Positions 14,761 through 17,335 of a stretch of DNA of 64,000 nucleotides are shown here, piece by piece. This DNA comes from Dehalococcoidia bacterium (GTDB lineage Bacteria > Chloroflexota > Dehalococcoidia > Tepidiformales > Tepidiformaceae). Where the stretch lies: contig PQAO01000021.1 in NCBI GenBank assembly GCA_003104995.1, positions 1 through 64,000 on the forward strand, in the 5' to 3' direction. Position numbers and translations under genes: made by a program. The notes beneath the pieces are model-generated. The model did no database searches. It saw only the letters and a program-made list of their open reading frames with translations, and was not told the DNA's origin. Numbering within the stretch: position 1 is the stretch's first letter; each line of letters begins with the position of its first letter.

Positions 14761-15999
14761 ATGCAGGCTGGCGCAACAGCTGTCACGGCTTCGCCGCGTC
14801 TTCCCGCCAATACCTTCACCATCGCGGGGGCGCTGCTGTTCATCGTCGTGGCGGCGGTCTTCACAGGCCAGAAGGACTTCGAGCTCGGAGCGTTCTGGCT
14901 GATCGGCATCGCCTTCGGCGTCATCGTCCAGCGCAGCCGCCTCTGCTTCGCCGGCGCCTTCCGCGACCTCATCATGTCCGGCGATGGCCGCCTCATGCGC
15001 GCCATCATCCTCGGGCTCGCGGTCACCACGCTTGGTTTCGGCATGCTCATGGCCCGCTTCGTGCCAGACCCGTCGTTCAACGTGCTCCCGCCCGGCGCCC
15101 ACATCCAGCCCGTGGGGTTCGCCACCATCGTTGGCGGCGTGATGTTCGGGATCGGAATGGTCCTCGCTGGCGGCTGCGTCTCCGGCACCCTCTGGCGCAT
15201 GGGCGAAGGCTACGTCAACTCCTGGGTCGCCATGGTCGGCATCCTCTTCGGGCTCTGGGGCGCATCCAAGTCCTGGAACTGGTGGTACGACAACGACATC
15301 AGCAAGCGCGAGGCAACCTGGCTCCCGACGGACCTTGGCCTCACGGCATCCGTCCTTCTGACGCTCGGGCTGTTGGCAGTCGCCTATGTGGCGATCCTCT
15401 GGTGGGAATTCCGCTCACCCCGGTTGCCCGAACCGAAGGCGAAACCCGCTCCACCGGCCCTCACCGTCCGTGAGTACCTGCGCAACTCCTGGAACGTGGT
15501 GTTTGGCGGACGCGGCTGGACCTATACCGCGGGCGCGCTCGCACTCGGCGTGCTCAGCATCGTCGCCTATAACCTCCAGAGTCCCCTGGGTGTCACAGGC
15601 GGCCTCGCGCTCTGGGCCGACAATGCCGCCAGGGTCGCCAACGCCGGCGGCCTGCCGCTCAAAGGCGCTGATCTGCTGGCAGGGTGCTCTTCGGCCGCTG
15701 CCGGCGCGGAATGGCTCACCATCCGCACCACCACCATGACCGGTGTGGTCCTGGGGGCGTTCACCGCATCGGTCCTCTCTGGCGAGTTCAAGGTGCGGTT
15801 CTCCCGCAACACCGCCCGCTACCCCCAGCTTCTGATCGGCGGTGCCGCGATGGGGTACGCCTCCGTCCTTGCGGTCGGCTGCACCATCGGTGCGTTCTTT
15901 TCGTCCATCCCGTCGTTAGCCGTCGCAGGTTGGATTTACGCCGCCGGGCTCGCTGCCGGCGCGTTCATCGGAGTTCAGGTCATTCGCCGCCTCCCCTGA
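14761..15999 (+). CDS. YeeE/YedE family thiosulfate/sulfur-compound transporter
   Basis: A 412-residue membrane protein with the double YeeE/YedE repeat. The first half has GGVMFGIGMVLAGGCVSGTLWR. The second has LLAGCSSAAAG and AMGYASVLAVGCTIG. The Cys-bearing turns in each half are those that relay thiosulfate in characterised YeeE (TsuA) proteins. About ten hydrophobic segments are visible. The ATG at 14761 has GAGGGGG 6 nt upstream, so the longer ORF start is not used. The TusA-like gene follows by 36 bp, the same pairing as yeeE-yeeD, which supports sulfur uptake. Confidence 0.87.
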   Translation: MQAGATAVTASPRLPANTFTIAGALLFIVVAAVFTGQKDFELGAFWLIGIAFGVIVQRSRLCFAGAFRDLIMSGDGRLMRAIILGLAVTTLGFGMLMARFVPDPSFNVLPPGAHIQPVGFATIVGGVMFGIGMVLAGGCVSGTLWRMGEGYVNSWVAMVGILFGLWGASKSWNWWYDNDISKREATWLPTDLGLTASVLLTLGLLAVAYVAILWWEFRSPRLPEPKAKPAPPALTVREYLRNSWNVVFGGRGWTYTAGALALGVLSIVAYNLQSPLGVTGGLALWADNAARVANAGGLPLKGADLLAGCSSAAAGAEWLTIRTTTMTGVVLGAFTASVLSGEFKVRFSRNTARYPQLLIGGAAMGYASVLAVGCTIGAFFSSIPSLAVAGWIYAAGLAAGAFIGVQVIRRLP

Positions 16000-16035
16000 G
16001 GCGGCTATCAGACAACGGAGGAGGAGTTCCACCAC

Positions 16036-16326
16036 ATGCAAATCGATGTCCGCGGAGAGATGTGTCCCTACCCGGCCATGAAGGCGAAGGAAGCGCTCAA
16101 GAAGCTCTCCGCAGGAGACCGGCTGGAGCTCATCACTGACCACGCCCCGGCGCTTTCCACCGTCCCCTGGGAGGGCGCCAAGCTCGGGTTCCTTTCCGAG
16201 ATTGCTGGCAAGGCGCCCGGCGAGTGGGTCATCACCCTCGAAAAGGCGAACGCCCCAATCGACCAGAAACAAATCCTGACCGCCATCGCAGCCCGTGCTG
16301 CCGAACTCGCGCCCGACGAAGCGTAA
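16036..16326 (+). CDS. TusA-like sulfur carrier protein
   Basis: A 96-residue SirA/TusA-fold protein. The CPxP motif (GEMCPYPAMKAKEAL) carries the persulfide Cys near residue 9. The rest follows the two-layer fold (LELITDHAPALSTVPW). GGAGGAG lies just upstream of the ATG. Placed directly after a YeeE transporter, it is likely the cytosolic acceptor of imported sulfane sulfur (TsuB/YeeD role) rather than the tRNA-thiolation TusA, though the families cannot be separated by sequence here. Confidence 0.88.
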   Translation: MQIDVRGEMCPYPAMKAKEALKKLSAGDRLELITDHAPALSTVPWEGAKLGFLSEIAGKAPGEWVITLEKANAPIDQKQILTAIAARAAELAPDEA

Positions 16327-16345
16327 AGCCCCCAAGGAGCCAACA

Positions 16346-17335
16346 ATGAAGAGACTCAGTCTGCTCGCACTGCTCGTAGTCGCCGCCTTCACCACCATCC
16401 TGGTGGCGTGCGGCGGCGATGACGACGACGACGCCCCGGCAGCCACCGCGACGACCGCGACCACTGCGACCGCCGGGGACAGCACCCCCCAGGTCCAGGC
16501 CACGCCCACTATCGACCCGAACGCCTACACCCGTCCTCAACTCCTCGTCGAGTCCGCCCAGCTCGAAAAAGCCCTCGGCGACCCGAACCTGGTCATCGTC
16601 GACCTGCGGAAGAAGGAGTCCTACGACGCCGGCCACATCCCCGGCGCCGTCTGGTACGACCCCGCCTTCCTCAAGGACCCCGACGACAAGTTCTACGTCA
16701 TCCGCGAGGAGCTCTTCGCCGAAAAAGCCGGCGCGATCGGCGTCGACAACACCAGGACCGTCGTCGCCTACGACGATGGCAACGGCCTGCTCGCCACCCG
16801 CTTCTGGTGGGTGCTCTGGTACTACGGACACGAGGGTTCGGTCCTCAACGGCGGGTTCGCAAAATGGCAGAAAGATGGCCTCGCGCTTTCGACGGAAGCG
16901 CCGGCTGTCACGAAGGCTGTCTTCAAGGCATCCGTCAACGACGAGGTCATCTGCGCCCTCGACTACGTTGCCGAGAAATCCGACAACCCGGACCCCAACG
17001 TCGTCATCCTCGATGTGCGTTCGCCCGCCGAATACACGGGCGCTGATGTTCGGGCGGCCAAGGGCGGCCACGTCCCGAACGCGGTGAACCTGGACTGGAC
17101 GCGCTCGCTCACCGAGGCCCAACCGCAGGTCTGGAAGCCTGCCGCCGAACTCCGCAAGCAGTTCGAAGAGGCCGGCATCAAACCCGGCGCCCAGGTCATC
17201 ACCTACTGCCAGACGGGCGTTCGCGCCGCCCACTCGCTCTTCACGCTCTACCTGCTCGGTTACGACGGCCTGAAGAACTTCGACGGCTCGTGGCAGGAGT
17301 GGGGCAACAACAAGGACACCAAGATCGCCCGCTAA
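16346..17335 (+). CDS. Tandem-rhodanese lipoprotein (thiosulfate sulfurtransferase-like)
   Basis: A 329-residue exported protein. The signal peptide ends in a lipobox (ILVAC), followed by an acidic Asp run and a Thr/Ala-rich linker. Two rhodanese domains follow. The N-terminal one starts VDLRKKESYDAGHIPGAVWYD, but its active-site loop is VVAYDDGNG with Asp where Cys would be. The C-terminal one has VITYCQTGVRAAHS with the catalytic Cys. This inactive-plus-active pattern is normal for thiosulfate/3-mercaptopyruvate sulfurtransferases. The ATG at 16346 is the lipoprotein start. It closes the YeeE-TusA operon and likely acts outside the membrane. Confidence 0.88.
   Translation: MKRLSLLALLVVAAFTTILVACGGDDDDDAPAATATTATTATAGDSTPQVQATPTIDPNAYTRPQLLVESAQLEKALGDPNLVIVDLRKKESYDAGHIPGAVWYDPAFLKDPDDKFYVIREELFAEKAGAIGVDNTRTVVAYDDGNGLLATRFWWVLWYYGHEGSVLNGGFAKWQKDGLALSTEAPAVTKAVFKASVNDEVICALDYVAEKSDNPDPNVVILDVRSPAEYTGADVRAAKGGHVPNAVNLDWTRSLTEAQPQVWKPAAELRKQFEEAGIKPGAQVITYCQTGVRAAHSLFTLYLLGYDGLKNFDGSWQEWGNNKDTKIAR

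Follow-up and report, generated by a model that had tools for sequence, protein, structure and literature searches.

Sulfur entry into the cytoplasm through YeeE-type transporters is poorly understood (PMC11582611). A known system is the thiosulfate-uptake pair TsuA-TsuB (YeeE-YeeD) of E. coli and Spirochaeta thermophila (structures 6leo and 8k1r), in which a transporter with three pore cysteines is encoded next to a TusA-family partner; partners of the TusA type work on the inner side of the membrane and may be joined to the C-terminus of YeeE in a single polypeptide (PMC11073785). For the SoxT YeeE-like transporters, it has been proposed that proteins on the outer side (SoxYZ, SoxS and DsbA-like proteins) deliver sulfur, which the transporter then moves into the cell (PMC11582611). 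Sulfur disproportionators and cable bacteria have a YTD cluster (YeeE-TusA-DsrE), in which YeeE and TusA are found together with DsrEFH-like proteins and which does not include the rhodaneses described there (PMC13047784). A 2026 review describes a YeeE/YedE selenoprotein only with the motif GUxSG, exemplified by WP_012471001.1 (PMC13188914).

The locus analysed here lies in a 64,000-nucleotide stretch of a Dehalococcoidia genome (contig PQAO01000021.1), referred to below as the window, in which three forward-strand genes (14761-17335) encode a YeeE-family transporter, a TusA-family carrier and a tandem-rhodanese lipoprotein (Table 1). It shares with TsuA-TsuB the transporter fold, the three pore cysteines and the neighboring TusA-family gene. 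However, its YeeE is 24% identical to E. coli TsuA and has an additional predicted outer loop, in which a fourth cysteine is conserved or, in some relatives, apparently replaced by selenocysteine (Sec), and its operon includes a predicted exported rhodanese, an outer partner unlike those of SoxT. The YeeE-TusA module is already known; the new elements are the cysteine C309 in the outer loop and a Cys-to-TGA change at its site. A literature search of open-licence papers found no description of the YeeE-TusA-rhodanese-lipoprotein trio, which we interpret as a probable sulfur-import unit.

The three genes form a conserved unit

The initial annotation had reported a YeeE protein, a TusA carrier and a rhodanese lipoprotein at this locus, and open reading frames and Pfam matches place all three there. 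Gaps of 36 and 19 bases separate the genes, and Shine-Dalgarno-like purine-rich stretches lie 5' of TusA (ggaggag) and of the rhodanese (aaggag). The transporter matches PF04143 over profile positions 1-310 with 205 bits (cut-off 27), which places it in the family, as the PF01206 match and CPxP motif do for the carrier. The latter is the sole TusA above cut-off in a search of the window's own genome and falls below the curated cut-off of the TsuB/YeeD model NF041048 (28.7 of 147.5 bits).

Table 1. Features of the YeeE-TusA-rhodanese locus (positions in the window) and loci of Sec-form YeeE genes in relatives.
Feature	Position	Strand	Remarks
YeeE-family (PF04143) sulfur transporter, 412 aa	14761..15999	+	ATG 14761, stop 15999; Pfam 2.1e-60
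C62 codon	14944..14946	+	aligns with C22 of S. thermophila TsuA; invariant in relatives
C139 codon (GGCVSG)	15175..15177	+	aligns with C91 of S. thermophila TsuA; invariant in relatives
C309 codon	15685..15687	+	extra cysteine, predicted extracytoplasmic loop 273-320
C374 codon	15880..15882	+	aligns with C293 of S. thermophila TsuA; invariant in relatives
TusA-family sulfur carrier, 96 aa, CPYP	16036..16326	+	PF01206 5.6e-16
TusA C10 codon	16063-16065	+	motif MCPYP
Tandem-rhodanese lipoprotein, 329 aa	16346..17335	+	two PF00581 stretches, TST fold
Lipobox cysteine C22 codon (LVAC)	16409..16411	+	invariant in 15-row alignment
Catalytic cysteine C288 codon, loop CQTGVR	17207..17209	+	invariant in 15-row alignment
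Sec-form YeeE	L038:5401-6747	-	
Sec-form YeeE	L039:5112-6308		
Sec-form YeeE	L103, L104, L105, L106, L107, L108		

Relatives of the transporter were found in 58 of 400 Chloroflexota genomes searched and, in a search restricted to the window's own class, in 65 of 393. The YeeE tree contains 81 non-redundant loci, at 65 of which a rhodanese gene adjoins YeeE, in keeping with the view that the trio is one conserved unit. The order YeeE-TusA-rhodanese was seen in most of the loci that we read around YeeE relatives. Dozens of Chloroflexota genomes in many families have these genes side by side, which is far from what chance would give. The genes flanking the trio in the window are retained only at same-genus loci, which indicates that the trio itself is the unit; on these grounds we rejected the upstream aminotransferase and the downstream enoyl-CoA hydratase as members. 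The trio is patchy even within the genus, the transporter being absent from 2 of 4 other members sampled.

Conservation of the trio led us to reject chance neighbours, and we regard adjacency with no functional link as extremely improbable. Such a reading can draw on five genomes of one family (f48), where the lipoprotein gene is unlinked, and on several genomes where no such lipoprotein was found. Against it, linkage is kept at those 65 loci, the association survives rearrangement (TusA-rhodanese-YeeE at L119, L121, L122 and L127; YeeE, a gap, then TusA-rhodanese at L124 and L126), and in the Sec clade described below YeeE also has a rhodanese lipoprotein for a neighbor, here one of a single domain. 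Linkage of the trio therefore holds in most relatives and fails in the five f48 genomes, where the lipoprotein is encoded elsewhere. Two further YeeE relatives (L130 and L133) are permuted, their two halves being read in one frame but with the C-terminal half first, and have an overlapping or adjacent TusA gene.

The rhodanese is a predicted exported lipoprotein

The rhodanese has the tandem fold of Azotobacter vinelandii RhdA (1e0c) and the T. thermophilus rhodanese (1uar), which were also the PDB matches of its structural model (pLDDT 86.8), and it has a CQT active-site loop as in RhdA. It is of the tandem TST/MST type: domain 1 has an aspartate (D143) in place of the catalytic cysteine and domain 2 carries C288, both residues being invariant. 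It differs from these enzymes in its lipoprotein leader and in its place in a transporter operon.

The signal peptide ends in LVAC|GGDDDDD. In a 15-row alignment the lipobox cysteine is invariant while the remainder of the signal peptide varies and includes RR-type leaders; this conservation within divergent signal peptides agrees with the annotated extracellular lipoprotein. The protein is thus predicted to be exported and to sit at the outer face of the cytoplasmic membrane. In a wider census, almost all adjacent tandem copies whose N-terminus is complete had a lipobox. Those without one are copies truncated at a contig end, two distant relatives (L030 and L031) that have an N-terminal membrane anchor instead, and the second copy at L113:2730-4582, where two tandem rhodaneses follow TusA in succession and the first has a lipobox. 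In most relatives, then, the rhodanese is neither cytosolic nor separated from its partners. A cytosolic location was rejected on the basis of these lipoboxes.

The unlinked rhodanese in the five f48 genomes is a lipoprotein with the same type of loop (CQTAVR), and none of the other unlinked rhodaneses examined had a credible lipobox; a regular-expression match at L147 falls a long way 5' of the domain, where the reading frame merely stays open. Export is predicted in most relatives; in ten further genomes that have a C309-type YeeE and TusA, none of the copies inspected was a predicted exported tandem rhodanese. Cytosolic paralogs in related genomes mostly have CRIGERS or CQGGVR loops, have no lipobox and fall mainly on separate branches, and an AU test of all exported rhodaneses as a single clade gave p = 0.46.

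The transporter has a fourth cysteine in a predicted outer loop

The window YeeE has nine core helices and one extra N-terminal helix, and its AlphaFold2 model (pLDDT 79.7) has the TsuA/YeeE structures 8k1r and 6leo as best Foldseek PDB matches. By model score, it is not a TsuA ortholog, falling far below the curated cut-offs of NF052577 (147.4 of 400 bits) and NF041049 (86.2 of 645 bits), and it is also below cut-off for the selenium-transport YedE models NF033796 and TIGR04112 (153 of 350 and 56 of 200 bits). Of its four cysteines, the total in the protein, three (C62, C139 and C374) correspond to those of the TsuA pore, and C309 lies in a stretch missing from E. coli TsuA. C309 is nearly invariant in the subfamily, being displaced by one residue in three copies and absent from one (L025).

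Three membrane helices follow C309 in the AlphaFold model (321-339, 353-370 and 388-410). Because these precede a C-terminus that should be cytoplasmic, given TusA-type docking and fusion there (PMC11073785), C309 should face outside. The mean net charges of the loops agree with this topology (+0.7, 0, +2.4, +2.8 and +1.8 for inside loops; -0.9, 0 and -1.6 for outer loops). In that orientation, C309 would be exposed on the face of the membrane to which the rhodanese is predicted to be lipid-anchored. Elsewhere, the same genome encodes a separate DUF6691 half-transporter-like protein (G000:C14:16759-17139).

Selenocysteine apparently replaces the outer-loop cysteine in two families

In eight genomes from the sister families f4 and f26 (G066, G368, G615, G658, G682, G706, G621 and G632), the YeeE gene has a single in-frame TGA (PG[TS]-U) at the C309 site, adjoining the Cys column, and the half downstream of the TGA is intact, C374 included. 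These Sec forms make up one clade nested within the Cys forms of the YeeE tree, indicating a single change. None has an adjacent TusA gene, TusA being encoded elsewhere in the same genomes, and wherever downstream sequence is available the next gene is a single-domain rhodanese with a lipobox-like leader. No NCBIfam model matched the Sec-form YeeE above cut-off.

A SECIS-like hairpin (CC[AG]GGTC-AGTT-GACCTGG) begins 18 bases from the start of the TGA, at a constant distance, and has 7 perfect pairs in 7 of the 8 genes. For comparison, across 2000 synonymous recodings the number of genes with at least 7 pairs anywhere in the stretch averaged 2.2, with a maximum of 6. Third codon positions are almost frozen inside the hairpin and variable before it. 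Since 16 of 89 Cys genes have hairpins of at least 7 pairs too, though in no fixed position, the constant position and the silent-site conservation are the stronger evidence. SelB was above cut-off in all eight genomes, and a tRNA-Sec gene was seen in three (G066, G368 and, at L107, G621). The features expected of a bacterial selenoprotein gene, namely a TGA aligned with Cys, a SECIS-like hairpin and SelB, are thus found together in f4 and f26, where the outer-loop cysteine of YeeE has apparently been replaced by Sec.

The TGA could instead be a sequencing error, the mark of a pseudogene or an ordinary stop, which we consider very unlikely. In its favor, the Sec forms are known from genes alone, the hairpin matched no Rfam family, and at L038 it has just a 5-bp perfect stem with one mismatch. 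However, the same codon recurs in eight genomes of two families, the pore cysteine and helices downstream are preserved, SelB is universal among these genomes, and TGA still terminates genes at L039, L106 and L107, the last of which has a tRNA-Sec gene (L107:3602-3692, reverse strand) about 1.8 kb from the Sec-form YeeE.

Like the GUxSG protein of the review, the Sec forms are PF04143 proteins with one Sec. Compared by motif only, the printed GUxSG fits the pore site GCxSG (C139 here), whereas the f4/f26 form (PG[TS]-U) lies in the predicted outer loop; a sulfur transporter with Sec there would add a selenoprotein site missing from that review (PMC13188914).

A sulfur hand-off at the outer face is the favored reading

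The sequences show the order of the genes, the export signal, active sites that are intact, the four conserved transporter cysteines and the Cys-to-TGA replacement, and from these we infer a hand-off of sulfur, its direction, the chemical form carried and an assimilatory purpose. In the proposed mechanism, the rhodanese, lipid-anchored at the outer face of the cytoplasmic membrane, would use its domain 2 to load sulfane sulfur from thiosulfate or from per- or polysulfide onto C288. C288 would hand this sulfur to C309 of the YeeE outer loop (Sec in f4 and f26), from where it would pass the pore cysteines C139, C374 and C62 and be taken up by C10 of TusA at the inner face. We give an import unit with this hand-off a probability of roughly 55%. 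What strengthens the case for a hand-off is a Cys or Sec of the transporter, predicted to face outward as a hand-off would require and missing from TsuA.

Replacement of Cys by Sec normally marks a residue that does chemistry. With Sec at this outer-loop residue and an exported rhodanese beside it wherever the DNA has been sequenced, C309/Sec is the best candidate acceptor of the rhodanese sulfur, and we therefore favor the path from C288 through C309 and the pore cysteines to C10 of TusA. The unit offers both a defined outer partner and a defined, mutable outer-loop Cys or Sec.

A strict form of this reading, in which the membrane is crossed not by thiosulfate ions but by sulfur atoms, moved by protein-to-protein persulfide transfer from the rhodanese through the outward Cys/Sec to TusA, is more tentative, and we place it at somewhat below even odds. 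In TsuA, about 7 A separates one pore cysteine from the next (PMC11582611), a spacing that makes a strict covalent relay questionable and calls for caution; the data would fit equally well if HS- or polysulfide were set free into the pore. Counting against the import unit with its hand-off are the ten genomes with C309-type YeeE and TusA in which no exported tandem rhodanese was detected, the Sec forms that have no adjacent TusA, and the copies in which the fourth cysteine is shifted (three) or missing (L025).

The main rival is transport of whole thiosulfate by YeeE, in the manner of TsuA, with cleavage by TusA inside the cell. The outer rhodanese would then run in reverse, feeding the transporter with thiosulfate made from persulfide and sulfite, or would hold thiosulfate near the pore, and C309 would be a gate or redox switch, not a relay. 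Thiosulfate chemistry is established for TsuA/TsuB (PMC11073785), all three TsuA cysteines have counterparts here (C62, C139 and C374), and periplasmic rhodaneses that promote thiosulfate formation and so feed YeeE have been proposed for cable bacteria (PMC13047784). On its own, however, this rival leaves the retention of the outer-loop cysteine, its change to Sec and its absence from TsuA unexplained, and we judge it rather unlikely.

Sulfur and selenium physiology of genomes with the unit

A search of 20 genomes with the trio, four of them Sec-form genomes in which YeeE and the rhodanese have no adjacent TusA, gave no match to either PAPS reductase or sulfite/nitrite reductase in 10, including the window's genome (91% complete). 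One or both reductases were found in the remaining half, and the control searches were positive in 11 of 14 genomes for each enzyme. The missing reductases fit assimilation of reduced sulfur, and the unit may be a sulfur route for uncultured Chloroflexota that have no sulfate assimilation genes. About half of the trio genomes also have PAPS reductase, so replacing sulfate assimilation is not its sole role. A SoxY search gave no match in the 20 trio genomes, but gave none in the control genomes either.

The unit could alternatively serve defence against, or disposal of, reactive sulfur (or selenium or tellurium) rather than nutrition, with the rhodanese as a detoxifying enzyme on the outside and YeeE-TusA moving its product. 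Rhodaneses can use many sulfane donors, and the selenium-linked YedE/FdhT and YedF are among the closest NCBIfam models, although they score far below cut-off. We regard this as improbable, as the trio is present where sulfate assimilation genes are absent, which favors nutrition, and it also occurs in genomes with no SelD match (G226, G146, G507 and G488) or no SelB above cut-off (G226, G146, G098 and G202), so that it is not tied to selenium use. The four genomes with no SelD match also led us to reject dedicated selenium uptake.

The window's genome has SelB and tRNA-Sec, yet its YeeE gene encodes cysteine at C309. Outside the window, this genome has a selD gene with one in-frame TGA (G000:C21:74792-75727), presumably encoding a Sec-containing SelD. 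In G066, two adjacent half-size YeeE genes resembling PmpA/PmpB (L040:4435-5450, contig C14) have one in-frame TGA each (AGUYVGN and HAAUGLV, in presumed outer loops), and the pair is possibly a second selenoprotein transporter. The second gene is followed by a strong hairpin with the loop GGTCT, which we take to resemble the classic SECIS of E. coli fdhF.
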